Assembly: GCF_022747945.1 (NCBI RefSeq)
Contig: NZ_JALDST010000001.1
Span: 5,766,001-5,830,000, forward strand
DNA length: 64,000 nucleotides
Direction of reading: 5' to 3'
DNA from: Micromonospora sp. R77
GTDB taxonomy: Bacteria > Actinomycetota > Actinomycetes > Mycobacteriales > Micromonosporaceae
The notes under the pieces were generated by a model that made no database searches, had not been told where the DNA came from, and saw nothing but the letters and a program-made list of their open reading frames with translations. The position numbers and the translations under genes are program-made. Positions within the stretch are counted from its first letter, which is position 1; the number at the start of each line of letters is the position of its first letter. This document shows positions 21,249-59,472 of this stretch, piece after piece.

Positions 21249-21665
21249 TTAAGCTCGACGGTTCTGCTGTTCGATGTACTGCTTCAGGACGCTCGGCGGT
21301 GGCCCGTCGATGGATCCGGCGAAGTACGAGCCTGACCACAGTTTGGTGTCCCGGTAGTAGTGGGGCGCGAGGTCGGGGAACTCCTGTCGTAGGCGGCGCG
21401 AGGACACGCCTTTGAGCGAGTTGACCAGCCGGGCCACGGCCATCTTGGGTGGGTAGTTGACCAGTAGGTGGACGTGGTCGTTGTCGCCGTTGAACTCGAT
21501 GAGTTCGGCTTCGAAGTCACGGCACACGTCCCGCATGATCGTCTCCATGCGGGACAGGTGCGGGTCGGTAAACACCTTGTGGCGGTACTTTGTCACGAAG
21601 ACCAAGTGGACGTGCATTGCGAAAACACAGTGCCTGCCGGTGCGGATGCCTTCGAGCTCTGCCAT
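21249..21665 (-). CDS. tnpA: IS200/IS605 family Y1 transposase TnpA
   Basis: This HUH single-strand transposase has 138 residues. It contains the metal-binding HVHLLV pair of histidines (about residues 64-66) and the catalytic tyrosine in VLKQYIEQQ near the C-terminus. It also has the start block HLVFVTKYRHKVF and the SLKGVSSRRLRQEFP region. It catalyses excision and insertion of the element as single-stranded DNA. The frame is intact and all catalytic residues are present, unlike copy 2. It could therefore act on both copies in trans. The start at 21665 is the longest in-frame ATG; an internal ATG at the MHVHLV block is an alternative. Confidence 0.92.
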   Translation of the reverse strand: MAELEGIRTGRHCVFAMHVHLVFVTKYRHKVFTDPHLSRMETIMRDVCRDFEAELIEFNGDNDHVHLLVNYPPKMAVARLVNSLKGVSSRRLRQEFPDLAPHYYRDTKLWSGSYFAGSIDGPPPSVLKQYIEQQNRRA

Positions 21666-21690
21666 AAACCAAGATGGTACGGTGCTGTTT

Positions 21691-22926
21691 GTGCAGCTCC
21701 GTTACCGCTACCGCGTCTACCCGACGCCCGGCCAGCAGATCGCACTGGCTCGGGCGTTCGGGTGCGCACGGGTGGTGTTCAACGACGGGCTGCGCGCACG
21801 GCAGCAGGCACACGAGGCCGGCTTGCCGTACATCTCAGACGGCGACCTGTCCAAGCAGGTGATTACGCGGGCGAAGCTGACGCCGCAGCGGGCGTGGCTG
21901 GGCGAGGTCTCGGCGGTCGTGCTGCAACAGGCCTTGGCCGACCTGAATACCGCATACCGCAACTTCTTCGCCTGGGTCACAGGCAGGCGCAAGGGTCGCA
22001 GGGTCGCCCCGCCGCGGTTTCGGTCGCGTAAGGACAACCGGCAGGCGATCAGGTTCACCAGGAACTCCCGGTTCAAGGTTCTCGACAACGGCCGCCTGCG
22101 CCTGCCGAAGATCGGCGACCTGGAGGTGCGCTGGTCACGTGCCCTGCCGTCCGATCCGTCGTCGGTGGCGATCATCCGGGATGTGGCGGGCCGGTACTTC
22201 GCTTCATTCGTGGTGACCACGGGCGAGGAGGAGACGCTGCCGCCGGTCGAGTCCGAGGTTGGTATCGATCTCGGGCTGATGCATTTCGCCGTCCTGTCGG
22301 ACGGTACGAAGGTGACCGCGCCGAGATTCCTGCGTCGGGCCGCCCGCAAGCTCAAGCGGCTGCAACAGGCACTGTCCCGCAAGCAGAAGGGCAGCAACAA
22401 CCGGAAGAAGGCGGTTATCAAGGTGGCACGGGCGCACGCCCGGGTGGCCGACACCAGGCGGGACTGGCAGCACAAGCTGTCTACGGCGATCATCCGCGAC
22501 AACCAAGCGGTGTACGTCGAGGACTTGTGCGTTGCCGGTCTCGGCCGGACCAGGCTCGCGAAGTCCGTGCACGACGCCGGGTGGGCCGCCTTCACCGGCA
22601 TGTTGGAGTACAAGGCCGCCCGGTACGGGCGCACTTTCGGCGGGGTGAACCGGTGGTTCCCGTCCACCCGGATGTGCTCGGCATGTGGCCGCGTCAACGA
22701 GAAGATGGGGCTGAACGTCCGGTCGTGGGACTGCCCCTGCGGCAGCCGCCACGACCGGGACCACAACGCCGCCAAGAACGTGTTGGCCGCCGGACAGGCG
22801 GACAACTCAAACGACCGTGGAGCGCAGGTAAGACCGGGACCCGTCCCGGCACCGCGCCGCGAAGCGGTAACCCACCCGGACGCCGCGCGGTCCACGCGCA
22901 GCGTGGAGGGAACCTCCGTCCTTTAG
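21691..22926 (+). CDS. tnpB: TnpB RNA-guided endonuclease (OrfB), copy 1
   Basis: TnpB is the ancestor-type nuclease of Cas12. It is guided by an RNA made from the element's right end and cuts DNA next to the target motif. The 411-residue protein has the N-terminal helical start RYRVYPTPGQQIALARAFG, an arginine-rich middle (PPRFRSRKDNRQAIRFT), and the RuvC triad Asp193 (GIDLGL), Glu277 (VYVEDL) and Asp357 (DRDHNAAKN). A zinc ribbon, CSACGRVNEKMG to DCPCG, lies before the last aspartate. The GTG at 21691 gives the usual VQLRYR start. Its stop codon falls in the loop of the right-end hairpin, so gene and guide RNA overlap. It appears fully functional. Confidence 0.93.
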   Translation: MQLRYRYRVYPTPGQQIALARAFGCARVVFNDGLRARQQAHEAGLPYISDGDLSKQVITRAKLTPQRAWLGEVSAVVLQQALADLNTAYRNFFAWVTGRRKGRRVAPPRFRSRKDNRQAIRFTRNSRFKVLDNGRLRLPKIGDLEVRWSRALPSDPSSVAIIRDVAGRYFASFVVTTGEEETLPPVESEVGIDLGLMHFAVLSDGTKVTAPRFLRRAARKLKRLQQALSRKQKGSNNRKKAVIKVARAHARVADTRRDWQHKLSTAIIRDNQAVYVEDLCVAGLGRTRLAKSVHDAGWAAFTGMLEYKAARYGRTFGGVNRWFPSTRMCSACGRVNEKMGLNVRSWDCPCGSRHDRDHNAAKNVLAAGQADNSNDRGAQVRPGPVPAPRREAVTHPDAARSTRSVEGTSVL

Positions 22927-27177: not shown

Positions 27178-28563
27178 ATGGCGACTCGGATCGGAGCCGA
27201 CCGGCGGTCCGCGCTGTCGACCGCGGCCCTGACCGCCGCCGGCACCCGGACCGACCAGGGCGGTCCGCGCCGACGCCGGCACCCCCTGCGGAGCACTCCC
27301 GTCCTGATCGTCGTGCACGGCGCCCTGCTCGCCGCGTTGCTGCTGGCCACCGCGGTGGTCGCCGCCGGTTCCGCCGATCCGGCCCGCACGCTCGGCCGTC
27401 GCTCCGCCGACCTCGCCGCCGGCACCAGCACCAGCGCCCGGCAGATCTACCGCACCCTCGCCGACGCGGACGCCGCCGCCAGTGCCGTCTTCCTGCTCTC
27501 CCCGGGCGACCGCCGTCGGCGCGGCCTGATCGACGGGTACGACGACCGGATCCGCCAGGTGCGGGCCGCGCTCAGCGCCTCGATGGGCGCCGCCGTCGAC
27601 GACCCCGACCGGCTCGCCCGGCTGGCCACCATCGCCGCCCGGCTGCAGGTCTACCAGCGGATCATCGACGACGGACTGGGCCGCCGCTGCGACGACCGGA
27701 CCGGTCCGGAGGGCCCGGCGATCTGCGCCAAGGTCGACGACGAGACGGTGGCGACGGCGAAGAACCGGGGCGTGCTCGCCTCGGCGTACGCCCGGGAGGC
27801 CTCCCACTACATGTCCGCCGAGCTGCTCCGGACCGCGCAGGACCTGTGGAACTACGACACCCGGCAACTGCGGGAGGCCCGGGCGACGGGCGAGTGGTGG
27901 CTGCTCGCCTCCCTGCTGGTGCCACTCGCCGCGCTGGCGGCGCTGGTGGCCGTGCAGTGGTGGCTGTGGCGGCGCACCCGTCGTCGGCTGAACGCCGGGT
28001 TGCTGGTCGCCACCGTGGGCGTCGCCGTCGTACTCGGGATGCTGGTGGCGTCGTGGTGGCACTGGCCCGCGGCGGACGACCGGTTCCCGGCACTGGAGCG
28101 GGCCATCGAGACGCAGAGCGGCACCCAGCAGCGCCTCGGTGACCTGCTGCGCGGGCGCGCGGACGTCTACCTGGCCCTCGGGTCGAGCGTCGACCCGGCC
28201 GGCCACCGGCAGGACTTCCTCGGTCGTGGCGTCTGTGGCGTCCCGCCCGAGGCCGTCGACTGCGGCACCCTCGACCCGGTCTGGTCGGCCCGGCAGGGCT
28301 ACCCACCGGGAGCGTTCGGGGTCGCCGTCGACACCGTGCTGAAGGACGGGTCGGGCCGCACGGGAGCGGCGGCGCGCTCCTTCGACCAGGTGACCGACCG
28401 GCTCACCGGAGAGCTCAACGACGGCGACCGGGCGGTCGACGCGGCGGTGGCGCGGCTGCCCCGGGCACCGCGGCAGCTCGGCGGGTCGGCGGCCTGGGTG
28501 ACCCTGCTCGCCGGGGTCGCCATGCTCCTCGGGCTGCGGCGACGCCTGGTCGACTACCGGTGA
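27178..28563 (+). CDS. glnX: GlnX-like four-helix membrane sensor protein
   Basis: This 461-residue membrane protein has four hydrophobic helices (about residues 42-65, 240-264, 272-296 and 436-453) that enclose two extracytoplasmic domains of about 170 and 140 residues. The first exported domain is helical and includes paired cysteines (RRCDDRTGPEGPAIC). The second contains GVCGVPPEAVDCGTLDPVW. This layout and the position before a glutamate-binding-type lipoprotein and pknG match GlnX of mycobacteria, which relays amino acid binding by GlnH to PknG. The ATG at 27178 has GAACGGGGGAAC upstream. Assignment rests mainly on topology and gene order. Confidence 0.75.
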   Translation: MATRIGADRRSALSTAALTAAGTRTDQGGPRRRRHPLRSTPVLIVVHGALLAALLLATAVVAAGSADPARTLGRRSADLAAGTSTSARQIYRTLADADAAASAVFLLSPGDRRRRGLIDGYDDRIRQVRAALSASMGAAVDDPDRLARLATIAARLQVYQRIIDDGLGRRCDDRTGPEGPAICAKVDDETVATAKNRGVLASAYAREASHYMSAELLRTAQDLWNYDTRQLREARATGEWWLLASLLVPLAALAALVAVQWWLWRRTRRRLNAGLLVATVGVAVVLGMLVASWWHWPAADDRFPALERAIETQSGTQQRLGDLLRGRADVYLALGSSVDPAGHRQDFLGRGVCGVPPEAVDCGTLDPVWSARQGYPPGAFGVAVDTVLKDGSGRTGAAARSFDQVTDRLTGELNDGDRAVDAAVARLPRAPRQLGGSAAWVTLLAGVAMLLGLRRRLVDYR

Positions 28564-28585
28564 GCCGGCAGGAAGGGAGCGTCCG

Positions 28586-29632
28586 GTGAGGATCCGCCCG
28601 ACGGTGGGGTGGCTGGCAGCTGTCGTGCTGCTGGCGGTGGCCGGCTGTTCGGCGACGTCCGGGTCGACGGCCGCCCCGCCCGCCCTGCCCGCAGCGGTGA
28701 CCAGCACCCCCACCACCGCCGCGCGTACGGGCGGCTTCTGCACCGTCCGGCACAGCTACCCGCCCAGCGCCGTACCGCCCGGCCGGGTGCTGACCCGGGG
28801 CAAGCTGGTCGCCGGGGTCGACCCGTCGGACGCGACGATGAGCCACTGGGACGCCACCGCGCAGCGGTTCGAGGGCTTCAACATCGATCTGGTGCTGGCC
28901 GTGGCGAAGGCGATCTGGCCGGACCGCGACCCGCGCAGCATGACCGAGTTCCGGGCCGTCCGACCGGGTCAGGGCGCCTTCGACGCGCTCGTCGGCGACG
29001 ACCCGGTGGACGTGATCGCCACCTCCCTCACCGCCTCGTGCCGGCGCGCGCAGGATGTCGTCTTCTCCAACGACTACCTGGACTCCGGTCAGACCGCGCT
29101 GGTCCGACGCGTGGGCGACGGACCCGAGTACGCCGGCGTCGACGACCTCGCCGGGCGTCGGGTCTGCGCGGCGGCGGGAACGACCTCGCTGGAGACCGTC
29201 GCCAGCTATCGGACCAGGGACGGTGGACGCCTGGTGCCGGTGCAGGCCGAGAACGTCATCGACTGCCTGGTGATGCTGCGTCAGCACCAGGTCGACGCGG
29301 TGAGCACCGACGAGAACATCCTCATCGGCTTCGCCCGGATGGCCCCGGACACCGCCCTGGTCACCGCCCCGCCGGCGGACAACGCGGCGTTCTGCACCTA
29401 CCACGTGGCCTCGGCACAGCAGCCGTGCACCTGGCTGACCGACGAACCGCACGCGTTCGCCTTCGCCAAGGGCGAGGTCGAGCTGGTGGCCTTCGTCAAC
29501 CACGTCCTGGCTCCCGCCGGCCCGGCGGGGCAGCGCGTCTGGCAGCAGGCCCATCAGCGCTGGCTCCCCGACCACCCGGACCGGGGTATGCCCTCGCCGG
29601 GCACCCCCGTGACCTCCTGGCCGCCGGCATGA
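28586..29632 (+). CDS. glnH: GlnH-like lipoprotein, amino-acid-binding (SBP family 3)
   Basis: This surface lipoprotein of 348 residues resembles polar amino acid-binding proteins. It has a lipobox (LAVAGC, Cys about residue 20) and a Thr/Ala-rich spacer. The periplasmic-binding fold follows, with KLVAGVDPSD, FEGFNIDLVLAVAKAIWP, VDVIATSLTASCRRAQDVVFSNDY and the second-lobe block AGRRVCAAAGTTSLE. No ABC permease or ATPase gene lies nearby, which argues for a sensing rather than transport role, as for mycobacterial GlnH with aspartate and glutamate. The GTG at 28586 follows GGAAGGGA, 22 bp after the glnX-like stop, so the two are co-transcribed. The ligand is inferred. Confidence 0.8.
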   Translation: MRIRPTVGWLAAVVLLAVAGCSATSGSTAAPPALPAAVTSTPTTAARTGGFCTVRHSYPPSAVPPGRVLTRGKLVAGVDPSDATMSHWDATAQRFEGFNIDLVLAVAKAIWPDRDPRSMTEFRAVRPGQGAFDALVGDDPVDVIATSLTASCRRAQDVVFSNDYLDSGQTALVRRVGDGPEYAGVDDLAGRRVCAAAGTTSLETVASYRTRDGGRLVPVQAENVIDCLVMLRQHQVDAVSTDENILIGFARMAPDTALVTAPPADNAAFCTYHVASAQQPCTWLTDEPHAFAFAKGEVELVAFVNHVLAPAGPAGQRVWQQAHQRWLPDHPDRGMPSPGTPVTSWPPA

Positions 29633-29642
29633 GGAGGGCGCC

Positions 29643-30766
29643 GTGACGACCGACGCGCGGCTGATCGCCGAGGCCCGGGAGGGTCACGCCCGGGTGTCCC
29701 GGTGTCTCCTGGACGCCCGGAAGCTCGTCGACGAGGAGTTCGGTCGGCAGCGCCCCTGGACCGGTGCCAGCGCGGCGGTCGAGCGGGACGCCCGGGAGCG
29801 GCTGCACCGGCTCGGTTGCCTCTCGCTGGCCCTCGACGCGCTGGTGGAACGGATCGACGAGCGGGAACAGTCACCCGGCGGGCGGGCCGCCCTGGCCCGG
29901 CTGCTCGCCGAGCCCTGCATGGTCCGCTTCACCGCCGGCACCCGCGAACCGGCCCGCGACGAGGCGTTGACCGTCGCCGAGATCGTCGCGGTGGCCGGCG
30001 AGCAGGCCGACCGCGTCGGAGCACTGGTGGCCACCCAGCGGTCGGCCGTGTCGAGTGTGGCGGCGCAGCTCGCCCGGCTCCGCACCGACCTCGAGGAACT
30101 CGCCGCACCCAACGGCCCCGTCGACGTCGGCCCCGGCCGGGCCGACGGGGACCGGCCGGTGACGACGGCACGGACGACGGGCCGGCCGGTCGCCTGGCCG
30201 CCCTGCACCGGCAGGCCACGGCCGACCCGCTGGGCTGCGCCCGGCCCGGCCCGTGGCGCGACGCGGTGGCCCAGGTCGCCGACGAGGTCGCCGTGCTCCG
30301 TCGCGCTCCGGCGGCGGCGGCCGAGCAGGAGCTCACCGCCCGGGCCGAGCGGCTGCGCACGGCGGTACGGCGGTGGCGCCCTGGCGGCCGAGGCGACCCG
30401 CGAAGGGCTGGGCGACGGCGACGACCCGACCGTCGGGCTCCCCGTCGACGCGTGCTCGACCGGGCCGGCCGGGGCGGTCCGGTCGGACGGGACGCACGGA
30501 CCGCCCTCGGCGACGAGCTGGACCGGACCACCGAACGCCTCGACGCCGCCCGCCGCCGATTGCGCCGGCGCTGCCACGCCGAGCTCGGCGGCCGGCTGGA
30601 GGCGTACCGGCAGCGGGCCGCCGACGAGGGGCGGGCCGAGCACCCCGACCTGGACCGGCGCTACCGCGAGGCGCGGGACCGGCTGCGCCCCGGACGGCTT
30701 CACGGTCACCGCCGCCAGCCGGGCGGTACGTGCCTACCAGCAGGCCGTGAACGGGGGACGCGATGA
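29643..30766 (+). pseudogene. Helical protein of unknown function in pknG operon, multiply frameshifted
   Basis: The first 165 codons are clear (MTTDARLIAEAREGHARVSR, then long amphipathic helices such as DALVERIDEREQ and SAVSSVAAQLARLRTDLEEL). After that the coding pattern jumps between two frames near 30150, 30380, 30450, 30690 and 30750. Pieces such as RLAALHRQATADPLG, DELDRTTERLDAARRR and AYQQAVNGG remain recognisably coding. Repaired, it would be about 370 residues, largely coiled-coil-like, and would overlap the pknG start as ATGA. I recognise no family. GTG at 29643 follows GAGGAGGG. It may be the scaffold between membrane sensor and kinase, which is a guess from position. The breaks are all in G/C runs. 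Confidence 0.6.
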
Positions 30767-32908
30767 CCGCTGCGCACCGGACCTGCGCCGAACGCAACTG
30801 CCCCGCAGAGGTGGACCGGGACGGCTTCGCCGACTGTGGGGGCACCAGTGCGCGGGCGACGCGCCGGCCGTCGCCGTACCGGCCCGGCCGGACCCGGTGC
30901 GGCCCGGCCGGCGTCGAGGCCGTGGCTGACCCCGGCCGTCATCCCGCCGGTCGCCCCCCGCGACCCGCGGGCCGCCGTGCTGTCCGGGCCGGTCGTCGCC
31001 GAACACGCCCGGTTCTGCCCGCGGACCGGCTGCCGCAGCCCGCTGGAGAAGGTGAGCGGGTTCTGCCCGGAGTGCGGCACCCGCTACTCGTTCACTCCGC
31101 CCCTGTCCGACGGGGAGCTGCGCGCCGGCCGGTACCGGATCGTCGGCTGCCTCGGCCACGGCGGCGTGGGCTGGGTGTTCCTCGCCCGCGACGAGGCGAT
31201 GAACGGCATCTGGCGGGTCCTGAAGGGACAGCGCAACCCGGACGACCGGGAGGCCGCTGCGGCCTTCGTCGCCGAACGGGAGGCGTTGATCGCGCTCAAC
31301 CATCCCCGGATCGTCACCATCACCGACGCGCTGCGCGAGTCCGACACCGACGCCGGCTACCTGGTGATGCAGTACGTCGACGGCGGCACCCTGGAGGACG
31401 CCCGGCGCGACCTGGGCGCCGACGGCGGCCCGGCGGCCGTCGACGTCGGCCAGGCGCTGGGGTACGGGGTGCAGATCCTCGACGCCTTCGAGTACCTGCA
31501 CGACCAGGGCTGGCTCTACTGTGACCTGAAGCCCGACAACGTCATGCTGATCGCCGGGCACGGGGTGGACGGCCCGCTCAAGCTGGTCGACTTCGGGGCG
31601 GCCCGGCGGATGGACAACCGGGTCAGTCCACCATGGGGCACCGCCGGCTTCGAGGCGCCCGAGGTGCCGCCGCTCGGCCCGGCCGGTCCCAGCGTCCGCT
31701 CGGACATCTACACCGTGGGTCGTACCCTGGCCGCGCTGACCCTGGCCACCAGCTCGGCCGACCTGCGGGCGCTGCCCGCCGGGCCGGACCTGCACCGGCT
31801 CGGCCTCCCGGCCACGCACGACCCGTTCGTGCGGCTGCTGGCCCGGGCCACCGCCACCGCCCCCGAGGACCGCTTCGGCTCCGCCGCCGAGATGCGCGAA
31901 CAGGTCCGGGGCGTACGCCGGCAGGTGCGCTCCGCCGCCGACGGCGAGCCGCGACCGACCCGCTCGGGCCTGTTCAGCCCTGCCGCCTGCGCCTTCGCGC
32001 TGCACACCGACGTGGGGGACCTGGACGTGCGGGAGATCCTGCTCGGCCTGCCCATGCCGCTGGTCGACGGCGCCGACCCGGCCGCCGGCTTCCTCGCCTC
32101 CCTCGGGCCCGCCGAGCCGGACGAGCTGATCGTCCTGCTGGAGAAGGCGCCCGAGCGCACCGCCCAGGTCACCTACCGGATGGTCCGCGCCCACCTGGCG
32201 GCCGACCGGGTCGAGCCGGCGCGCGCCCTGCTCGCCGACGTCCCCGACGGGCCGGGGGACTGGTCGCTGTGGTGGCATCGGGCTCTGGTGGCGCTGGTCG
32301 GCGGCGAGACCACCGAGGCGCGGGACTGGTTCGACCGGGTGTACGGCTGGCTGCCGGGCGAGGTGTCCGCGCGCCTGGCGTACGCGGTGGCCTGCGAGCT
32401 GGACGACGACCTGGCCACCGCCGCCGCCCACTACCGGGGCGTGTGGACCGCCGACCGGGGGGTGGTGGCGGCGGCCTTCGGGCTGGCCCGCTGCCTGCTC
32501 GTCACCGCGGATCCGCGTCGCGCCGCGGACGTGCTGCTCACCATGCCGGAGTCGTCCCGGGCCACCGCGCTGGCGGTGACCTGCGCGGTCCGCATCCTGC
32601 TGGAGGCGCCGGACGACGGCCACCGGCTGGACGCCACCCTCGACGCGGCGCGGGTGGTCGAGGGACTGCCCCGGTTCGCGGAACGGGACCTGGTCGAGGC
32701 TTACCTGCTGCGGATCCTGCTGGAGTACGACCTCGCCGACCCCCGGCACGCCGGCCGGCGCCTCTTCGGCCGTCCCCTCGACGAGCGGCACGTCCGCCGC
32801 GCCTTCGAACGCCGCTGCCTGCGCCTGGCCCGCCGGACCGGCGACCGGGCGGAGCGGACCGAGCTGGTCGACCTGGCCAACACCCACCGCCCGGTGACCT
32901 GGTGGTGA
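30763..32908 (+). CDS. pknG: Serine/threonine protein kinase PknG
   Basis: This is a cytosolic PknG-type kinase, with N-terminal metal-binding region, kinase domain and TPR tail. The kinase has GHGGVGWVF (glycine loop), the lysine of WRVLKGQRN, YCDLKPDNVML, LVDFGAARR and GTAGFEAPE. It is a non-RD kinase (Cys before the catalytic Asp), as expected for PknG. Upstream, CPRTGCRSPLEKVSGFCPEC and an earlier CAERNC pair resemble the rubredoxin-type cysteines. TPR helices fill the last 300 residues. From about 30925 the frame is intact. The first 50 codons need two frame changes (near 30840 and 30910), so the N-terminus is uncertain. The ATG at 30763 overlaps the previous stop. Known PknG senses amino acid status and phosphorylates GarA/OdhI. 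Confidence 0.88.
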
Positions 32909-32937
32909 CCGCCGACCCCGAGGAGAGGAGCGCGCCG

Positions 32938-34374
32938 GTGTCCGACGGTGCCGAGCTGACCCTGACCGCGCACCACAGCGCGTACCTGCCGGCCGAGGGG
33001 GGCGTGGTGGACGTCGTCGCCTCCGTGCGGGGCGGCGCCTCCGGCGGCGCGGAGACGTCCCATGACGGGCTGGCCGAGGTGATCCTGCTCGACTGCTCCG
33101 GCTCGATGGGTGCCCCGCAGGCCAAGATGCGGGCCGCCCGGGCGGCCACCCTGGCCGCGCTCGACGCGCTGCCCGACGGGGTGGCGTTCGCCGTGGTGGA
33201 GGGGACCGACCGGGCCACCATGTGCTATCCGGCCCAGCCGGTGCTGGCGGTCGCCGGCGAGCGGACCCGCGCCGAGGCGCGGCAGGTGGTCCGTCGGCTG
33301 CAGCCACACGGCGGTACGGCCATCGGCCGGTGGCTGCTGCTCGCCCGGGACCTCCTCGCCGGCCGGCCCGACGCCATCGGGCACGTCATCCTGCTCACCG
33401 ACGGCCGTAACGAGTCGCAGCACCCCGACGAGCTGCGTGCGGCGGTGGCGGCCTGCACCGACCGGTTCACGGTGGACTGCCGGGCGGTCGGCTCGGCGGA
33501 CGGCGTGCACGACTGGGACGGCACGGAACTGCTCGGCATCGCCGAGGCGCTCGGCGGCAATCCGGTCGTACCGGTGGAGGACCTGGCCGCGCTGGCCGCC
33601 GACTTCGCGGCCGTGCTGGCCCAGGCGATGAGCCGTCGGGTGGGCGACGCCCGGCTGCGGGTCCGGACCCCGGAGATCGCCCGCATCCGGTTCGTCAAGC
33701 AGGTCTATCCGACCATCGTGGACCTGACGCCGCGCGGTGTGTCGCTGGACGCCCTCAACACCGACTTCCCGATCGGCGCGTGGAGCCCGACCGACCAGCG
33801 CGACTACCAGGTCGCCCTGGAGGTCGACGCGATGCCGGTGGGGGCGACCCGGCGGATCGGCTGGTTGAGCCTGCACACCGGGGCCGGTGCGCAGGGGGAG
33901 GAGGAGCCGCTGACCGTGGAGTTCACCGACGAGGTCGACCTGTTCAGCACCGTGCACGACACGGTCGCCCACTACACCGGCCAGCAGGACTACGCGGAGG
34001 CCTTCCGGCGTGGCCTGCGCGCGGTCGAGGCGGGGCGGCTCGACGAGGCCGAGGAGCACTTCGGCCGGGCGGTGGCGCTCGCGCACGCCGGCGGCAACGG
34101 CGACAAGCTGACGCTGCTGGCCCGGATCGTCGACGTGCTGGACGCACCCGCCGGGCGGGTCCGGCTCAAGCGGGGCGCCGACCCGCGCAAGCGCCAACCG
34201 TCCGTGGTGCACGCCCTGCAGACGTCCCGCTGGCGCGCGGCCGAGCCGGCCGACCCGGCACCGGCCGTGGCAAGCCGCGCCGTGGCGGCACTGCGGCCAG
34301 GAACGCACCAGCGCGTTCTGCGGGGACCGGCGCCGGGCGGGACGCCGCCGGCGTCGACGCCTGAGCGCGGATGA
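32938..34374 (+). CDS. VWA domain protein of the pknG operon
   Basis: This cytosolic protein of 478 residues has a von Willebrand A domain holding a complete MIDAS: DCSGSMG (DxSxS) near residue 52, the threonine of GGTAIG and the aspartate of LLTDGRNES. A beta-sandwich region follows (VGDARLRVRTPEIARIRF to WLSLHTG), then a helical, TPR-like stretch (AEAFRRGLRAVEAGRLDEAEEHFGRAV). Such proteins bridge partners in a Mg-dependent way, often with ATPases. The GTG at 32938 follows GAGGAGAGG, 29 bp after pknG. Its stop overlaps the next ATG (ATGA). In the last 30 codons another frame reads HCGQE and AFCGD, a possible zinc-ribbon end, so the extreme C-terminus may be misread. Confidence 0.85.
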   Translation: MSDGAELTLTAHHSAYLPAEGGVVDVVASVRGGASGGAETSHDGLAEVILLDCSGSMGAPQAKMRAARAATLAALDALPDGVAFAVVEGTDRATMCYPAQPVLAVAGERTRAEARQVVRRLQPHGGTAIGRWLLLARDLLAGRPDAIGHVILLTDGRNESQHPDELRAAVAACTDRFTVDCRAVGSADGVHDWDGTELLGIAEALGGNPVVPVEDLAALAADFAAVLAQAMSRRVGDARLRVRTPEIARIRFVKQVYPTIVDLTPRGVSLDALNTDFPIGAWSPTDQRDYQVALEVDAMPVGATRRIGWLSLHTGAGAQGEEEPLTVEFTDEVDLFSTVHDTVAHYTGQQDYAEAFRRGLRAVEAGRLDEAEEHFGRAVALAHAGGNGDKLTLLARIVDVLDAPAGRVRLKRGADPRKRQPSVVHALQTSRWRAAEPADPAPAVASRAVAALRPGTHQRVLRGPAPGGTPPASTPERG

Positions 34375-36159
34375 ACCTCGACTCCTGGAACCAGGTGGCC
34401 GGCGTGGTCAGCGGTGTGCTGGCGCTGGCCGGTGGGGTCGCGCCGTCCGCCGCCACCAGCGCGGCCGCGCCGAGCGCGGCTGGTGGTCCGCGCTGCGTCC
34501 GCTGTGGCAGCACCAGCACGCCGAGCGGATGCTGCACCCGCACCGTTTCGGCCGCGGCCCCGTCCGGCCGCTGGCGCAGGTGTACGTCCCGCGCCGGGCG
34601 GTGCCCCGGCTGGACCCGGCCGGCGGCGAGGTCGACGTCGCGCGACTGCTCACCGGCACCGGGCACGTGCTGCTCCTCGGCGAGCCGGGCAGCGGCAAGT
34701 CGGCGCTCGTCCGGCAGGCGTGCACCGACTCGGCGGCGCGGTGGCTGGCCGGGCGGGGGCGGCTGCGGCGTACCGGTGCGGGACCGGTGGTGCTGAGCCT
34801 GCCGGCGGGTGCCCTGGTCGACCAGGGTTGCCGGCCGCGCTGCGGGCGGCGTACCGGGAGGTCTGCCCGGGGGTGGACTTCACCCGGCCGCCGGCGCGCG
34901 GTCGCGGCTGGCTGGTCTGCGTGGACGGGGTCGACGCGGTGACCGACCCGGACGACCGGGGTCGGGTGCTCAACCGGCTCGCCGACGCGGCCCGCAGCGG
35001 CGGGGCGGAGACCACCGGGCCCGGGCCGTGGCGGGTGCTGGTGACCACCCGGCAGCTCGCCGGGTCGGAGCTGGCCGTGCTGCGGGACTACCAGGCGCAC
35101 CACCTGGTGCCCTTCACCGACGCGGACGTGCAGCTGCTCGCGTCGCGCTGGTTCCCGACCGCCGCCACCGCTGCGGCGTTCCTGCGCTGGCTCCGCGACC
35201 AGCGGATCGGCGAGCCGGTACGCAACCCGCTGACCGCCACCATCGCCGCGTTGGTCTGGGACAACGAGTGGGCCGGAGCGATCCCGGGCACCGGCCCCGC
35301 CGCCCTGCTCGAGGGGTTCGTGGCGGCGCTGCTGGCCGGCGGCCGGGCCACCCTTGAGGCGGTGGCCGGGCAGCTGCGTGCGCGCGCCCGGCGGGGAACC
35401 CCTGGCCGCCTGGTTGACCACCCACCAGCCCGAGCTGGTCGAGGTCGCCGCGATCGCCGCCCGCGACGGCGGCGACCCGGTCGACGCCGCCGTGGCCTGG
35501 TCGGCCCGCACGCGCCCGGCCCGCCCGCGGCGGTCGCGGCGGACTGCCGGGCAGGTCCGCGCCGTGCTGCTCGCCACCGGCCTGTTCCGCGAGCCGCGGG
35601 CGGACGAGCGGACCGGCCCGGCGACCTTGTGGCGCCGGCCGCGCTGCTGCCCGCCGGCGCGGGACTGCTGGACTACGTGGCGGCCGGGCCGCTCGCCGAC
35701 GACTGGCGGGAGGACCGCTGGATCGCGGCGATGACCACCACCGGTGACCGTGGCCTCGGCCTGTACGCGCTGACCCGGGTCGCCACCGCACCGGACTTCC
35801 TCCAGCGGATGGCGGCGCAGGGCCCGGCCGGTGCCGTCTCCGCCGGGTACGCCCTCGCCGCCGGTCAGCCGGTCGCCGACGCCGTCCGCGCGGAGGTGCT
35901 GGCGGCCCTGCTCACCCACTGGTCCGCCCACCCGGGGACGGCCGACCCGGACGCGGACGCGGATCCGGCCCGGGAGTGCCTGTCGGTGCTCACCACCCTC
36001 GCGGCCGTCCGGTCCACCCGGGAGCTGCTGCGCCGGATCGGCACGGATCCGCAGCGCCCGACCGTGGTCCGCGAGGCCGCCGCGCTCTTCTTCGCCGTAC
36101 GCCAGCAGACCGCCGGCCCCCGAACCGGTGCGGACGTCGCCGGGGCCGCCGCCGGCTGA
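34371..36159 (+). pseudogene. NACHT/STAND-like NTPase of the pknG operon, multiply frameshifted
   Basis: Repaired, this is a protein of about 590 residues. A short hydrophobic N-terminal helix (WNQVAGVVSGVLALAGGV) is followed by GWWSALRPLWQHQHAERM. The NTPase carries Walker A GEPGSGKSALV, Walker B GWLVCVDGVDAV and an LVTTRQL strand (sensor), which is the NACHT/STAND pattern. The C-terminal 400 residues are helical repeats of uncertain type. Coding jumps frame near 34450, 34830, 35390 and 35630, each in a G/C run. No effector domain (TIR, nuclease, protease) is recognised, so the membrane helix may be the output. The ATG at 34371 overlaps the VWA gene stop. It is co-transcribed with a kinase and a VWA protein, which is the reason for interest. 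Confidence 0.65.
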
Positions 36160-48132: not shown

Positions 48133-49848
48133 CCGGGGTCGCCCCCTGCTCCCCGTAGCCGACCAGCTCCCGGTAGGCCGCCGAGCGGGCCAGCAGACCC
48201 GGGTGGCTGTCCAGCAGGGCGGTGTGACCGTCCAGCAGCAGCACCCGGCGGGCGCGCAGCGCGGAGCTGACCCGGTGCGCCACCACCACCAGGGTGCCGG
48301 GCCGGTCGGCGAACGCCTCCTCCAGCCGCGCCTCGGCCGCCGGGTCCAGGTGGCAGGTGGCCTCGTCGAGGATCACCAGCGGCGCCGGGGAGAGCCAGGC
48401 CCGCAGCAGGGCCACCTGCTGGCGTTCGCCGGCCGACAGGTCCACCGGGCGGACGTGCGCGTCGAGGCCGCCGAGCCGGGCCAGCAGCGCGGCGAGCCCG
48501 AGCCGGGCCGCCGCCCGGTCGATCGCCGCATCGGGCAGGTCGGGGCACAGGTAGGTGAGGTTCTCCCGCACCGTGCCGGTGAAGACGTACGCCTCCTGCG
48601 GGATCAGCACCCGCCGGTCGGCCAGCGCGGCCGGGCTCGCGCCGGCCACCGGCAGTCCGCCGACGCGTACCGTGCCGGCCTGCGGCCGGAGCACCCCGGC
48701 GATCAGCGCGGCCAGGGTCGACTTGCCGATCCCGCTCGCCCCGACGATCACCAGGTGGTCCCCGGCGGGCACGTCGAGGTCGAAGCCGGCCAACACCGGG
48801 TCGGCGTGCGGGCCGTACCGGAAGGTCACCCCCCGCAGCGACAGCGCCGGCTCCGGCGCCGCGGGCCCTGCGGCGACCGGGGACGGGCCACGCCGGTCCG
48901 GGTCCGGGTCGGCGGCGGTACGCAGCAGCCGGTCCAGGGTGACGGCGAAGCGCAGCCCACCGGCCGCCACCCCTGGACCAGGCTGCGCAGCGCGGGCTGC
49001 ACCCCGTGCACGACGTAGACCAGGGCGCCGAGCACGGCGCCCGGCCCGAGCCCCTGCCGGACCAGCCACGGGGTGGCCAGCAGCAGCACCGGCACCGGCA
49101 ACCAGCCGCCGACGGCCAGGCTCAGGCTGCGGGTGGCCGCCATCGTCGCCAGCCGCCGCTCCACCCGCGCCTGGTCGTCGACGTACGCCCCCACCCAGCG
49201 CACGACCCGGTCCCGCGCACCGCTGACCGTCACATCACGGTGCCCGGTCACGGCGCTGACGGCGGCCCGGCCCAGCCGCTCGTCGGCCAGCACGTACTCC
49301 CGCTGCCGGGCGATCATCGCGGGCAGGGCCGCCGCGAACAGGCCCAGACCGGCGAGCACCGGCACCGCCACCAGCAGCGCGACCGGGGCGGCCAGCGAGG
49401 CCAGGCCGACCACCGCGGCGCCGGCGGCGAACACGAAGCCGCGCACCACCATCACCAGCCCGGCGAAGGTGTCCCGGACCATCTCCACCTGGTGGGTCAG
49501 CCGGGACACCGCCGCGTCGTCGCCGCGCCCGGCCGTCGCGTCCGCCAGCGCCCCGGTCACCACCCGGCGCAGCAGGTCGTCGCGGAACGGCTCCACCACC
49601 TCGCCGAGCAGCGCGTACGCCCGGTTGGTGCCGGCCGCGCCGACCAGTACGGCGACGGCCAGCAGCCCCAGCCAGGCCAGCCCGGTCGCCGGGCGGCCGG
49701 CGAGGAAACCCGCGTCGACGGCCCGCGCGGTCAGCAGCCCGGACAGCGCCGCCGGCAAGGCCTCGGCCACCGACCAGCCCGCGAGCCGCCACAGTGCGGG
49801 CCGCCGTGCCCGCAGCGCGGCCCGGGTCACCTCGCCGACGCCGCTCAC
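48062..49848 (-). pseudogene. ABC transporter half (membrane plus ATPase), second of pair, one frameshift
   Basis: This is a fused membrane/ATPase exporter of the lanthipeptide locus, about 595 residues if repaired. The N-terminal half holds six hydrophobic helices. Near the CCCC run at 48970-48973 one base is missing and the frame changes. The second half has Walker A GASGIGKSTL, signature LSAGERQQVALLRAW and Walker B LVILDEATCHLD. The signature has SAGE rather than SGGQ. The GTG at 49848 overlaps the stop of the partner gene (GTGA), so the two are coupled and likely form a heterodimer, as RamA/RamB do. The frame break may be a sequencing indel, because both halves are well conserved. Confidence 0.8.
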
Positions 49849-51510
49849 GCCCGGAACACCGCCCGGTAGTCGGGGTCGGCCCACAACACCTCGTGCGGAC
49901 CGACCGCGCGGACCCGGCCACCGTCCACCCAGGCCACCAGGTCCGCCCGCGCGGCCATGCCGACCCGGTGGCTCACCATCACCCGGGTACGCCGGTCGCC
50001 CGACCCGGTCAGCGTCCGGGTCACCCGGTACTCGGTGACCGTGTCCAGGCTGGAGGTGGCGTCGTCGAGGACGAGCAGCCGTTCCGCGCGCAGCGCGCGG
50101 GCCAGGCCGAGCCGTTGCCGCTCACCGCCGGACATGGCCACCTCGGCCAGCGGGGTGTCGTACCGGTCGGGCAGTCGTTCGACGAAGTCGTGGATGGCCG
50201 CAGCCCCGGCCAGCGGCACCGGGTCGGCGCCGCAGCCGACCGCCGTGCCGACCGTGTCACCGACCAGCACTGGCCGCTCGAACCCGTAACCGACCGCGCG
50301 GTGCAGCGCCGTCGAGGTCAGCTCGGCCAGCGGCACGCCGTCCAGGATGACGGTGCCCGAGTCCGGGTCGCGCAGCCGACCGGCGACGGCGGCGAGCAGC
50401 GACTTGCCCGCGCCGGAGCGGCCGACCACGACGAGCAGCGCGCCACCCGGCACCCGCAGGTCCACCCCGTCCAGCAGCGGCCGGCCGTCGTCGTCGCGCA
50501 CCGTCACGTCCCGCAGTTCCAGCACGCCCGGCCCGCTCGGCAGGGTACGGCTGCCGTACCGGCGGACGGGCTCGGCCAGCACGTCGGCCGCCTGCCGGCA
50601 GCCGGCGCGCCGCGACCGCCTTGTTGAGCGCGGTGACCACCGTGCCGAGGCCGGCGCCGAGCGCCGCGTACTGGAGCGCGGCCAGCAGTTCCCCGGGGGT
50701 GAGCCGGTCGGTGGCCAGCGACAGCCCGCCGACGGCGACGACGGCCAGTTGCAGCAGGGGGTTGAGCACCGCGCCGCGCGTCGTTGCCGAGGCCAGCACC
50801 CGCCAGGTCCGCGCGCCGTGCCGGTGCAGGTCGGGCAGGGGGGTGAGCACCCGGGCGATCTCGCGGTCGGCGGTACCGGCGGCGGCGATCGTGCGGGCGC
50901 CGGCGAGGGTCTCCACCAGTCGGCCGGCGAGCTGTCCCTGGGCTCGCTGGTAACCGGCGACGGCCGTCGAGGCGTTCGCCACGAAGCCCCGCAGCAGCAG
51001 GGCCAGCAGCAGCAGGCCGGCCACGAAGGTGAGACCGAGCCACGGGTCGATCAGGGTGAGCGCCACCAGGCTGCCCAGCGGGGGCAGCAGTACCGTGGCG
51101 GCCAGTACAAGCGTCGGGGCGGCCTGCCCGGCGTCGGCGACCTGGCCCACCAGCCGACCCACCAGTTCGCCGGCCGGATGCCGGCCGGCGGTGCGGGGGT
51201 CGAGGGCGAAGATGTGCCGGGTCAGGGTGTGTCGCAGCCCGGCGACCGACCGCGCGGTGGCCACTCCGGTGCCGTAGTCGCGTACCGTGCCGGCGGCGAC
51301 CAGCACGGTGATCAGACCGACGACCACGGCCAGCCAGCGGGCGGGCGAGGTGCCCGGTGCGGTGCCGACGGCGGCGTCGACGGCCCGACCCAGCGCGGCG
51401 GGCAGCGCCAGCTCGGCCGCCACGGTGGCCACGGTGACCACGGTCAGCACCGGGGTCCACCAGCCGGCGGAGCGCACGGCGCGCAGCAGGAGCCGGTCGG
51501 CCGGAGTCAT
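49845..51510 (-). pseudogene. ABC transporter half (membrane plus ATPase), first of pair, one frameshift
   Basis: This is a fused exporter of about 555 residues. It has an N-terminal membrane domain (six helices from SAGWWTPVLTVVTVATVAAELALP to LLQLAVVAVGGLSLATD) and a C-terminal ATPase with GRSGAGKS, MSGGERQRLGLARAL and LLVLDDATSSLD. The frame shifts near 50610 in a GC-rich GCGGCGCGCCGG stretch; flanking sequence fits one protein. The ATG at 51510 follows GGGAGGTGCG. The position directly downstream of two lanthipeptide precursor genes indicates export of the mature peptides. Its stop overlaps the start of the partner. Confidence 0.8.
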
Positions 51511-51965: not shown

Positions 51966-54533
51966 TCAGTCGCCGGCCGGTGCGGGGTCGCCGGCCGGCG
52001 TCGCGCCGGGCAGCGGGGTCAGGAACGGCAGCCGGGCGGCGTCCGTGGTCCGGCTCGTCGACAGGGCGGCCAGCACCCCGGCGGTGCCGGTGGCCAGGTC
52101 CATCGACAGTCGCAGGAGCTGGTCACCGGGGAAGGCGGTCAGCCCCCGGTACGGCAGGGCGTGCCAGCTCAGCAGCCGGGCCTGCCGGCGGGCGGCGTCG
52201 TGCTCGCCCCGCGCGGCCAGGTAGGTCACGATCCCCGCCCGACCGGCGAAGAGGCCGGACTGGGCGTAGAAGGGGGAGTCGGCGCAGCGTCGGATCGCCG
52301 CCGCCTGACCGCGCAGCGTCTCGTCGGGGCGGTGCCGCAGGTACTGGTCGAGCACCAGGCCGATCCCCACGCTGCCCTCGGCGAGGTACGGCATGGTCCG
52401 CCAGCCCTCGTTGACCTCCAGGTGACCGGCGTCGCGCAGCACGCACCGGCGCAGGTCCTGGCGGAGCGCCGTGGCGGCGTGGTCGAGCAGGGCCGGGTCC
52501 CGGTCCAGCTCGTACATCCGCAGCAGCATCAACGCCATTCCGGCCCCACCCCGGGCCAGCCCGGCGTACGGGTGCCGGCCGCCGCTGACCTCGGCCACCG
52601 ACTCGACGTCGCCGAGCCGGTCGACCACCAGGCCGACGGCCCGCCGGGCGGCGTCGGCGTACCGCCGCTCGCCGGTGAGCCCGGCGAAGTGGGCCAGGTT
52701 CAGCGCGATGCCGGACAGACCGCTGGTCAGGTCGGTGCCGAGCTCCGTCCAGGGCTCGTCGAGGCAGAGGTCCAGCAGGCGCAGCGCCTCGGTCCGGTGC
52801 CCGAGCGCGTCCAGCACGTACGCGATGCCGTGCAACCCGTCGTAGAAGCCGAGCCGGCTGCCGGCGGCGGGTTCGCGTACCCGGTCGATCAGCCACCGCT
52901 CGTGGGTGGCGTCGGTGGGCACCCCCGTCGCGTGCAGCGCCCAGAGCACCCCGGCCGCGCCGTGGGCGACGTTCAGCCCGCCGTCGGCGCCGGAGAACTG
53001 GCGGATGTCGCCGGGGAAGAGCCGGTCGTCGCGGTGCGGCGTGGCGCTCTCGGCGATCGCGGCGGCGAGCCGGTCGCGCAGGGCGGGCCAGTCGTCCGGG
53101 TCGACCCGGACTAGTTCCGGGTCGGTGGTGGCCGCCGCGTCGCCGGCCAGCTCCGCGACGGTCGCGTCGAGCAGTTCCCGGGGCACCGGGAAGCGCTCGG
53201 CCACCAGGTCGGCCAGGTGCGCCGCCTTGGTCGGGGCCAGCCGCAGCATCGCCGTGAGCGGCAGGAACAGGGCCAGCCGCAGGCAGGCCAGGGCGTAGCG
53301 GTCGACGGCGACGCCGGTACGGTCGCGGGGGGCGGCGAACGCCTGGTTGCGCAGCGCGGGCCGGCCGCCGGCGTCGGCCGGTGCGGCCACCTCGAAGTCG
53401 ATCAACGTGACGGCGCCGTCCGCGCCGACCATGATGTTGAACATGTGCAGGTCGCCGTAGACCACCCCGTGGGCGTGGATGGCGTCCACCGCCTCGGTCA
53501 CCTGCCGGTGCACGTCCAACGCCCAGCGGGTGTACCCGTCGCGGTCCGCGTCCACGTGGACCAGCGGGTAGCGCTCGACGACCAGCTGGTTGAGCGGGCG
53601 ACCCTCGACGAACTCCAGGGCCAGGAACTCGTGCCCGCCGAAGCTGAACACGTCGTGCACCCGGACCAGGTGCGGCACGTCGGCGAGCCGGCGCAGCATG
53701 TCGGCCTCACGGTGCAGGCGGGTGACCGCGTCCGCGCCGTCGGCGTCGAGCCCGGCGTGCGGGCGGGCCTCCTTGAGCACCACCCGGTCCCCGGTCCGGG
53801 TGTCCCGGGCCTCGTACAGGCCGCCGCCGTTGGAGAAGTGGATGACCTTCTCGATCCGGTAGGGCAGCTCGGTGGTGCTGGCGGCGTTGCGGGCGGCCAG
53901 GTGCGGGGCGAGGAAGTCGGGCAGCGTCACCCACTCCGGCACGTGGAACACCGGGTCGCGGCGGTCCGGCACCAGGGTGCCGCTCGGGTCCTCGATGGCC
54001 GGGACGACCTGACCCTCCGGGGAGAGGCAGTAGCGGGCGGCGAAGCCGCCGTAGCGCAGGTACACCGGCCCGTCGCCGTAGCGCAGGTCGCTCAGCACGT
54101 ACGGTCCCTGCTCGCCGTCGAGCAGCGCCGCGAGCTCCTTGGCGGTCAGCTCCAGTTCGGCGTCGTCACGCGGGTAGACGGTGACGAACTTGCCGCTGCT
54201 GCCGCGGCGGGCGTACTTGCTGTTGCGCATGAGCAGCATCCGTGGTCCGCGCAGGTGCTTGAACGGGATGCCGCGCGGCTGGCAGTAGTCCATCACCCGG
54301 GCCAGCACCCGTTCGGCGTTGTCCAGCCGGGCCGAGACGTGGAGCTTCCAGCCCTGCTGGGGCAGGGCGCCGCCGACCGGTCCGTGGATCAGCCAGTCGT
54401 CCTTCACCTCGCACTCCCAGCCGGCGGGCAGCGGTCGGTCGGTCGCGTAGCCGCCGGCCTCGGCGCTCGCGCTGGCCAACGAGTCGTAGAAGAGCGGGTC
54501 GACCGCGCAGTACGAGTCGTACCGTTCATCCAT
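51966..54533 (-). CDS. lanKC: Class III lanthionine synthetase LanKC
   Basis: This trifunctional modifying enzyme of 855 residues has an N-terminal lyase-like domain (about 1-220), a Ser/Thr kinase-like domain and a LanC-like cyclase domain. The kinase carries VVLKEARPH, YGDLHMFNIM with the catalytic Asp, and LIDFEVA. The cyclase is recognisable by repeated GxxG helices (GLHGIAYVLDALG, GLSGIALNLAHFAG, GGAGMALMLLRMYE, GSVGIGLVLDQYL). It phosphorylates and eliminates Ser/Thr in the precursor and closes the rings. The usual zinc-binding Cys pair of class I/II LanC is not evident, as is typical of class III. The ATG at 54533 follows GGAGG. The two precursor genes and two ABC genes follow on the same strand. 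Confidence 0.95.
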   Translation of the reverse strand: MDERYDSYCAVDPLFYDSLASASAEAGGYATDRPLPAGWECEVKDDWLIHGPVGGALPQQGWKLHVSARLDNAERVLARVMDYCQPRGIPFKHLRGPRMLLMRNSKYARRGSSGKFVTVYPRDDAELELTAKELAALLDGEQGPYVLSDLRYGDGPVYLRYGGFAARYCLSPEGQVVPAIEDPSGTLVPDRRDPVFHVPEWVTLPDFLAPHLAARNAASTTELPYRIEKVIHFSNGGGLYEARDTRTGDRVVLKEARPHAGLDADGADAVTRLHREADMLRRLADVPHLVRVHDVFSFGGHEFLALEFVEGRPLNQLVVERYPLVHVDADRDGYTRWALDVHRQVTEAVDAIHAHGVVYGDLHMFNIMVGADGAVTLIDFEVAAPADAGGRPALRNQAFAAPRDRTGVAVDRYALACLRLALFLPLTAMLRLAPTKAAHLADLVAERFPVPRELLDATVAELAGDAAATTDPELVRVDPDDWPALRDRLAAAIAESATPHRDDRLFPGDIRQFSGADGGLNVAHGAAGVLWALHATGVPTDATHERWLIDRVREPAAGSRLGFYDGLHGIAYVLDALGHRTEALRLLDLCLDEPWTELGTDLTSGLSGIALNLAHFAGLTGERRYADAARRAVGLVVDRLGDVESVAEVSGGRHPYAGLARGGAGMALMLLRMYELDRDPALLDHAATALRQDLRRCVLRDAGHLEVNEGWRTMPYLAEGSVGIGLVLDQYLRHRPDETLRGQAAAIRRCADSPFYAQSGLFAGRAGIVTYLAARGEHDAARRQARLLSWHALPYRGLTAFPGDQLLRLSMDLATGTAGVLAALSTSRTTDAARLPFLTPLPGATPAGDPAPAGD

Positions 54534-54711
54534 GTCGTCTGCCTCCACCGCCTGATCGGTTGAGGTCAATCCTGCGGACGGCTGAGGGTTGGGCCCAGTG
54601 TGATGAGTCATGGACGGTGGGTGAGTTTCCCACGATGACATCGTGACATCGGCGGAGTTTGAATTCCCGAATCACGTGTCACCTGCGGCGACGCGGGGTG
54701 TCCGCACACGA

Positions 54712-58239: not shown

Positions 58240-59472
58240 GTGCAGCTTCGGTACAACTTCCGCGTCTACCCGACGACGGGCCAGCAGATTCAACTGGCGA
58301 AGGCGTTCGGGTGTGCGCGGGTGGTGTTCAACGACGGGCTGCGCCTGCGCCAGCAGGCCCGCGAGGCGGGCGAGAAGTACGTTTCTGACGGGGAGTTGTC
58401 GCGGCGGATCATCACCGAGGCGAAGGCGACCGCAGAGCGTGCCTGGTTGGGCGAGGTCTCCGCGGTAGTGTTGCAGCAGGCCTTGGCGGATCTGAACAAC
58501 GCGTACCGCAACTTCTTCGCCTCGGTTATGGGTAAGCGCAAGGGTCGCAAATTTGCCCCGCCGAGGTTTCGGTCGCGTAAGGACAATCGGCAGGCGATCA
58601 GGTTTACGAAAAACTCCCGGTTCAAGGTCCTCGACAATGGCCGCCTACGTCTGCCGAAGATTGGCGACGTTGAGGTGCGCTGGTCGCGAAGCCTGCCGTC
58701 CGGTCCGTCCTCGGTCACGGTGATCAAGGACGCGGCGGGTCGGTACTTTGCGTCGTTCGTCGTGCAGGCCACGGACGTGCCACTTCCCGAGACAGGCTCT
58801 GAGGTTGGCATCGACCTCGGACTGACCCACTTCGCTGTGCTGTCGGATGGCACGAAGGTCGCGGCGCCGAAGTTCCTGCGTCGGGCCGCCCGCAAGCTCA
58901 AGCGGCTGCAACAGGATCTCTCCCGCAAGCAGCGCGGGAGTCAGAACCGCAAGAAGGCCGTTGTCAAGGTCGCTCGCGCTCATGCGCGGGTGGCCGACAC
59001 GCGGCGGGACTGGCAGCACAAGCTGTCCACGAAGATTATCCGCGACAACCAAGCGGTGTATGTCGAGGACCTTGCCGTTGCCGGTCTCTGCCGGACCCGG
59101 CTCGCGAAGTCCGTGCACGACGCCGGATGGGCCGCCTTCACCGCCATGTTGGAGTACAAGGCCGCCCGGTACGGGCGCACTTTCGGCAGGGTGAACCGGT
59201 GGTTCCCGTCCACCCGGATGTGCTCGGCATGTGGCCGCGTCAACGAGAAGATGGGGCTGAACGTCCGGTCGTGGGACTGCCCCTGCGGCAGCCGCCACGA
59301 CCGGGACCACAACGCCGCCATCAACGTGTTGGCCGCCGGGCAGGCGGACAACTCAAACGACCGTGGAGCGCAGGTAAGACCGGGACTCGTCCCGGCACCG
59401 CGCGGCGAAGCGGTAACCCACCCGGACGCCGCGCGGCCCACGTGCAGCGTGGAGGGAATCCCCGTCTTTTAG
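58240..59472 (+). CDS. tnpB: TnpB RNA-guided endonuclease (OrfB), copy 2
   Basis: This 410-residue protein is colinear with copy 1. The RuvC triad is intact at Asp192 (GIDLGL), Glu276 (VYVEDL) and Asp356 (DRDHNAA), and the zinc ribbon CSACGR/CPCG is present. The N-terminal region differs in many residues (YNFRVYPTTGQQIQLAKAFG) while the C-terminal third is almost the same. Start GTG at 58240 corresponds to copy 1. Its conservation beside a dead tnpA suggests the nuclease is kept by its own activity, since TnpB cutting of the empty site favours element retention. The stop codon lies in the right-end hairpin loop. Confidence 0.93.
   Translation: MQLRYNFRVYPTTGQQIQLAKAFGCARVVFNDGLRLRQQAREAGEKYVSDGELSRRIITEAKATAERAWLGEVSAVVLQQALADLNNAYRNFFASVMGKRKGRKFAPPRFRSRKDNRQAIRFTKNSRFKVLDNGRLRLPKIGDVEVRWSRSLPSGPSSVTVIKDAAGRYFASFVVQATDVPLPETGSEVGIDLGLTHFAVLSDGTKVAAPKFLRRAARKLKRLQQDLSRKQRGSQNRKKAVVKVARAHARVADTRRDWQHKLSTKIIRDNQAVYVEDLAVAGLCRTRLAKSVHDAGWAAFTAMLEYKAARYGRTFGRVNRWFPSTRMCSACGRVNEKMGLNVRSWDCPCGSRHDRDHNAAINVLAAGQADNSNDRGAQVRPGLVPAPRGEAVTHPDAARPTCSVEGIPVF

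Follow-up and report, generated by a model that had tools for sequence, protein, structure and literature searches.

A pknG operon of Micromonospora sp. R77 that combines amino-acid receptor genes with a VWA protein and a NACHT/STAND ATPase

In the 64-kb window of the Micromonospora sp. R77 genome analysed here, to which all coordinates refer, a plus-strand operon encodes the receptor pair GlnX and GlnH and the kinase PknG together with a helical protein (HEL), a VWA protein and a NACHT/STAND nucleoside triphosphatase (NTPase). The association of kinase, VWA protein and NTPase is conserved among relatives, and we tentatively prefer to view the operon as one variant, here called class C, of a modular PknG signalling operon, an extended form of the known amino-acid-sensing operon. 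Such a gene set suggests joint action of a nutrient sensor and an NLR-type molecular switch. Much work has been done on PknG, and its operon is usually treated as three genes. The arrangement described here would make that operon one form of a modular family in which the varying member can be an ATPase with the NLR fold, a phosphatase or a protease fusion. This would offer testable candidates for the unknown partners of PknG and a case in which nutrient sensing, in place of immunity or in addition to it, is linked to an NLR-type switch. The six genes are:

27178..28563, + strand: glnX, membrane signal transducer of 461 amino acids (NCBIfam GlnX models)
28586..29632, + strand: glnH, substrate-binding protein of 348 amino acids (SBP_bac_3; PDB 6h1u)
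29643..30762, + strand: HEL, unknown helical protein; frame-broken, 3' end approximate
30763..32908, + strand: pknG (Pfam PknG_rubred, Pkinase and PknG_TPR; PDB 2pzi); 5' end frame-broken
32905..34374, + strand: VWA protein of 489 amino acids (VWA_3, VWA_3_C, PDB 4fx5), with a metal-ion-dependent adhesion site (MIDAS)
34371..36159, + strand: NACHT/STAND ATPase with an N-terminal membrane helix; open in homologues, in at least four frame pieces here

The genes follow one another on one strand in the order glnX, glnH, HEL, pknG, VWA, NTPase. Gaps of 22 bp and 10 bp separate glnX from glnH and glnH from HEL, and both pknG/VWA and VWA/NTPase (ATGA) overlap by 4 bp. The coordinates, strand and tight codirectional spacing given for the six genes by the initial annotation held on re-examination. 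The pknG reading frame is open over 30836-32908, and the start is probably the ATG at 30763, which lies in a different frame. A divergent M4 peptidase gene borders the operon upstream, and a convergent PhzF gene lies 22 bp downstream.

The NTPase was searched for in 160 Micromonospora genomes (E<=1e-15), of which 17 matched: the window genome, 13 with strong open-frame homologues and three (G691, G695 and G183) with weak matches and no PknG in the 20 kb read. All 13 strong homologues sit behind pknG and VWA with the six-gene order kept. The VWA and NTPase genes therefore stay with pknG, as a search for this order in the Micromonosporaceae had been proposed to establish, and the open frames of all 13 show that the NTPase has not become a pseudogene genus-wide, a possibility that had been raised for the species. 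PknG itself, detected by PknG_TPR, is present in 32/160 genomes of the genus, 133/250 of the family, 89/249 of the order and 26/396 of a phylum sample. All 14 genomes with the NTPase fall among the 32 with PknG (hypergeometric p 1e-11, for genomes that are related and not independent), and the flanking genes, as read, differ between several loci. The genus holds 35 PknG places, 24 of them read as loci (window included) and 11 outside the set.

For a wider comparison, 101 loci were sorted into classes; these were picked from listings and are not a random sample, one set of 47 loci was used without 36 of its members (L031-L066, distant kinases), and genes were called with a custom caller that places starts approximately. 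The set comprises 28 class B, 22 class D, 19 class C and 12 class A loci, 15 unclassed (E) and five without PknG by our own profile threshold, two of which (L124 and L146) had been chosen for a PknG_TPR match. Class A consists of glnX-glnH-pknG without VWA or PP2C. Class B is defined by PP2C and VWA genes behind pknG and mostly reads glnX-glnH-HEL-pknG-PP2C-VWA; two named Mycobacterium species (L022, L023) carry such an operon, with HEL, PP2C and VWA around pknG. Class C, the window type, has 17 distinct loci, 13 from Micromonospora and four from genomes in two further GTDB genera within the same family. No PP2C gene occurs among the six window genes or in the 19 class C loci as read. Class D, found in Streptomycetaceae, Micromonosporaceae and family f15 of the order, runs trypsin/HEL fusion-pknG-VWA-GlnX relative-SBP_bac_1, its downstream membrane protein being related to GlnX with an hhalign probability of 99.7%. 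Two Micromonospora class D operons (L203, L204) look fragmented in the gene calls, in the GlnX relative, VWA, PknG or the fusion. Among the unclassed operons, L098 and L122 have pknG-VWA and, behind it, genes for an unknown protein and for a relative of GlnX.

Of 95 tree rows, 75 show the VWA gene behind pknG, and in 71 of 96 loci HEL, as a separate gene or as part of the trypsin fusion, is no more than two genes away from pknG. Because the VWA protein accompanies PknG in three classes, with PP2C in class B and the trypsin fusion in class D, the data point to PknG/VWA(/HEL) as the module, joined by a partner that can be exchanged. The link of VWA and NTPase to PknG seen in the initial annotation is conserved, but the 'VWA plus NTPase pair' as a unit was dropped, as class B and D operons pair VWA with PknG and lack the NTPase.

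The class D fusion bears on how the parts might fit together. Its C-terminal stretch of about 160 residues is shared with HEL (99.5%), and its middle domain, between the trypsin and HEL parts, weakly matches the NTPase around the P-loop, Walker B and the next strand (E 4e-5, 5e-5 and 2e-4, probability 70, 67 and 49%; control families 0.023 or worse). The P-loop lysine motif is present in none of the 22 fusions. If true, a fusion of HEL with an NTPase-like domain would point to HEL-NTPase contact in class C.

Phylogeny was assessed with a PknG tree of 95 rows, built by a quick method and midpoint-rooted. Class C and L135, where VWA and NTPase genes are likewise present, make up one fully supported group, and classes C and D stand opposite A and B. 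The class A groups (f8, joining named Mycobacterium rows, and f15) stand apart within class B, and forcing class A into one clade costs 38.8 log-likelihood units (approximately unbiased test, p-AU 0.041, on the quick tree). The simplest reading, on a root and a test that are not strong, is two separate losses, each of which left a three-gene operon. A branch with support 44 sets class C apart in the VWA tree, and support rises to 100 for class C plus L135. Over 75 rows the correlation between PknG and VWA distances is r 0.92, as would be seen for co-inherited genes.

The individual proteins fit these assignments. GlnX is matched by the NCBIfam models transduce_GlnX (E 5.9e-46, 157 bits versus a cut-off of 250) and kinGactiv_GlnX (E 1.2e-12, 47.5 bits versus 780), in both cases below the curated cut-off, so that its earlier naming is only provisional. 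GlnH matches SBP_bac_3 (E 6.1e-9), has M. tuberculosis GlnH (6h1u, E 3.9e-22) as its best PDB match and, by eye, contains a lipobox-like stretch, LAVAGC. PknG has rubredoxin, kinase and TPR domains, catalytic residues and a match to PDB 2pzi (E 7e-93). The VWA protein (VWA_3, E 5.4e-12; VWA_3_C, E 5.9e-7) is a close sequence relative of PDB 4fx5 (E 7.6e-73), a von Willebrand factor type A protein structure without a stated role, and its full MIDAS, D-S-S-T-D, is present in 75/75 aligned rows, the window included. The identification of GlnH, PknG and a VWA protein with complete MIDAS made at the outset is backed by these matches. HEL has 646 homologues at E<=1e-6, mostly of 285-449 amino acids, including proteins of Mycobacterium sp. 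JS623 and Nocardia mexicana, and its C-terminal domain recurs in the class D trypsin proteins; one homologue has a predicted structure with a predicted local distance difference test score (pLDDT) of 89 and a predicted TM-score (pTM) of 0.58.

The NTPase homologues match the NACHT profile in 24 of 25 cases and AAA_16 in all 25, and Walker A (G-GSGK) and D186 are invariant in the 25-row alignment; the window's own copy is in pieces. At the N terminus, where an effector domain would stand, there is instead a helix of ~50 residues that is hydrophobic in 25/25, in agreement with the NACHT/STAND-like NTPase with an N-terminal membrane helix proposed at first. Domain scans of the homologues turned up neither an effector domain, such as a nuclease, TIR or protease, nor a repeat family, though the protein may have an unrecognised sensor. 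A modelled homologue has a predicted NBD-HD1-WHD-HD2 fold, the NLR core, and ends ~30 residues past its structural match to NLRC4. The ATPase is therefore predicted to share the core fold of animal NLR immune receptors.

The operon thus brings together a GlnH/GlnX receptor pair, PknG with its TPR domain, two conserved partners (HEL and the VWA protein with its MIDAS) and a NACHT ATPase that starts with a hydrophobic helix. By analogy with known systems, signalling may run from GlnH through GlnX to PknG: GlnH would bind an acidic amino acid outside the cell and GlnX would relay its state to the TPR domain of PknG, which might then phosphorylate local partners, besides or instead of GarA. The VWA protein, via its metal site, and HEL could tether kinase and ATPase to each other at the membrane, where the NACHT ATPase, in the position of PP2C in class B, would serve as a nucleotide switch that sets or resets the output. 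The kinase may gate the NTPase or be gated by it, as first suggested. A more speculative version, which we regard as possible but doubtful, is a membrane-bound PknG/HEL/VWA/NACHT signalosome in which the amino-acid receptor controls assembly of the NLR-type ATPase; the textbook glnX-glnH-pknG operon would then derive, in reduced form, from such larger complexes.

Several observations weigh against this modular interpretation. The GlnX scores fall below the curated cut-offs, class A functions with none of VWA, HEL and NTPase, and the HEL-NTPase fusion match is uncertain, at hhalign probabilities of 49-70%. The Foldseek TM-scores of the NTPase against NLRs are just 0.43-0.47 by query length, for multi-domain models. 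In the PknG tree the sister of class C is D, which lacks PP2C, rather than B, so that 'in place of PP2C' describes the position of the NTPase and not a shown replacement. Inheritance in one operon is not proof of direct contact. Finally, because three genes are frame-broken in the window, the system may not work in this strain.

An alternative is that the operon exerts ordinary GarA control over 2-oxoglutarate metabolism, as in mycobacteria, with HEL, VWA and NTPase as accessory tuners. The expected GarA phosphosite motif is ETTS. The genome encodes a GarA/OdhI homologue (L198:1297-1749; G000:C1:6487907-6488356), flanked, by eye, by gcvH-like and MerR-regulator-like genes, whose N terminus reads DVTSTLN at the place of this motif; a genome-wide search with the coding pattern ETT-any-VFR gave no match. 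PknG of mycobacteria phosphorylates GarA on an Asp/Glu signal via GlnH and GlnX (PMC6069109, PMC8546545, PMC9769921). The Mycobacterium/Corynebacterium operon described there has the same receptor pair, kinase architecture and order glnX-glnH-...-pknG, whereas here HEL precedes pknG and VWA and the NACHT ATPase follow it, GlnX scores lower than the curated models demand and GarA is without ETTS. The resemblance of GlnH to the Asp/Glu-binding M. tuberculosis GlnH, the retained rubredoxin, kinase and TPR domains of PknG and the presence of GarA favour such a role. However, the GarA homologue is found in 160/160 Micromonospora genomes (96-100% identity in the rows shown), with or without PknG, compared with 32/160 for PknG and 14/160 for the class C NTPase. 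Control of GarA in the genus therefore cannot depend on PknG in general, and together with the altered N terminus this makes GarA control an unlikely account of the operon.

The initial annotation also saw VWA/NTPase pairs as typical of large signalling or conflict complexes, and the operon could be a conflict system, antiphage or for programmed arrest, in which a kinase responding to nutrient or envelope state would arm or release an NLR-type ATPase. The predicted NLR-type core fold, the patchy distribution of the NTPase in the genus and the variable flanks fit this idea, and excerpts of PMC7159879 describe vWA and STAND proteins as parts of conflict systems of multicellular bacteria. Against it, no effector domain was found in the NTPase homologues, the operon is bordered by genes for an M4 peptidase and a PhzF protein, and a periplasmic binding protein would be an odd phage sensor. 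The best PADLOC match of the NTPase homologues is mad8 (E 0.0028 for L020 and 5e-4 for L068), weak and limited to the P-loop, and PADLOC matches of PknG are generic; a defence system called from the latter was rejected, as they reflect the kinase domain. These tests lend the conflict role no support, and we rate it as improbable.

Comparison with other systems likewise shows partial overlap. NLRs (NLRC4, NLRP3, NOD2) and bNACHT proteins (PMC12169576, excerpts) share Walker A/B, the NACHT profile and the predicted NLR-core fold, but the protein here has no repeat sensor or effector domain that the scans could find, carries an N-terminal hydrophobic helix and belongs to a kinase operon. The actinobacterial GAP1-N2 groups of kinase, PP2C and standalone vWA likewise place a Ser/Thr kinase beside a vWA protein, and class B has PP2C as well; class C lacks it, combines a PknG-type kinase with a binding-protein receptor and has no GTPase/GAP1 among the six genes. 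The MoxR-vWA and iSTAND ternary systems also join vWA to a STAND-type NTPase, and iSTANDs are described as inactive, as the class D fusion without the P-loop lysine motif might be, whereas class C keeps Walker A and has PknG as its core. Both are taken from excerpts of PMC7159879, in which PknG is not mentioned. Identity with a MoxR-vWA ternary system was rejected, there being no MoxR family member among the six genes, to which this search was limited. TerY-P triads and the PpkA-PppA-Fha pathway are further systems with a Ser/Thr kinase beside a vWA protein. No description of pknG operons with VWA, HEL or a NACHT ATPase was found in the open literature, in part as excerpts; subscription journals and preprints lay outside this scope.

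The frame changes in HEL, the pknG 5' end and the NTPase could instead be true mutations, leaving the operon a decaying relic that is switched off in this strain. By a simple count, the window has 12 frame switches, five of them within the 9-kb operon, where ~0.9 would be expected from the genome rate; break density in the operon is thus above the genome average. Yet the genome as a whole, with 41 switches in 400 kb (20 sampled stretches), has two to five times the density of two control genomes (9 and 4 in 200 kb each), as an indel-prone assembly would give, and the operons of 13 relatives and their surroundings show 6 in 260 kb. In its nearest relative (G700, locus L084; 93% identity over 12 kb), the HEL, VWA and NTPase genes are open, but pknG has an in-frame stop in the same 5' part where the window changes frame. 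Between the two, ratios of nonsynonymous to synonymous substitution (dN/dS) are 0.15 for PknG (3' 618 codons), 0.17 for GlnH, 0.18 for GlnX, 0.22 for NTPase, 0.23 for VWA and 0.53 for HEL, the least constrained of the six. Whereas the HEL value and the stop in L084 would suit decay, the compared window codons contain no in-frame stops and the NTPase ratio is similar to that of VWA. Three of the NTPase pieces match an open homologue, and the VWA gene has two frame-breaking indels relative to L084, its frame nonetheless being open. The breaks are most readily explained as mostly assembly errors, with real recent damage also possible, and a relic seems distinctly unlikely. Given the denser switches genome-wide, caution is due with any other gene that looks 'broken' in this assembly.

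Function cannot be read from gene order by itself, but that NTPase and VWA are mere passengers, cotranscribed but functionally unrelated to the kinase, is very hard to credit given an order conserved across several genera and congruent PknG and VWA trees.

Elsewhere in the window, a class III lanthionine synthetase gene (LanKC, 51966-54548, 1099 bits) and an ABC-type ATPase gene (49845-50582) likely form a lanthipeptide cluster. An IS200/IS605 transposase gene adjoins a TnpB gene at 21249-22926, and a second TnpB gene lies at 58240-59472.
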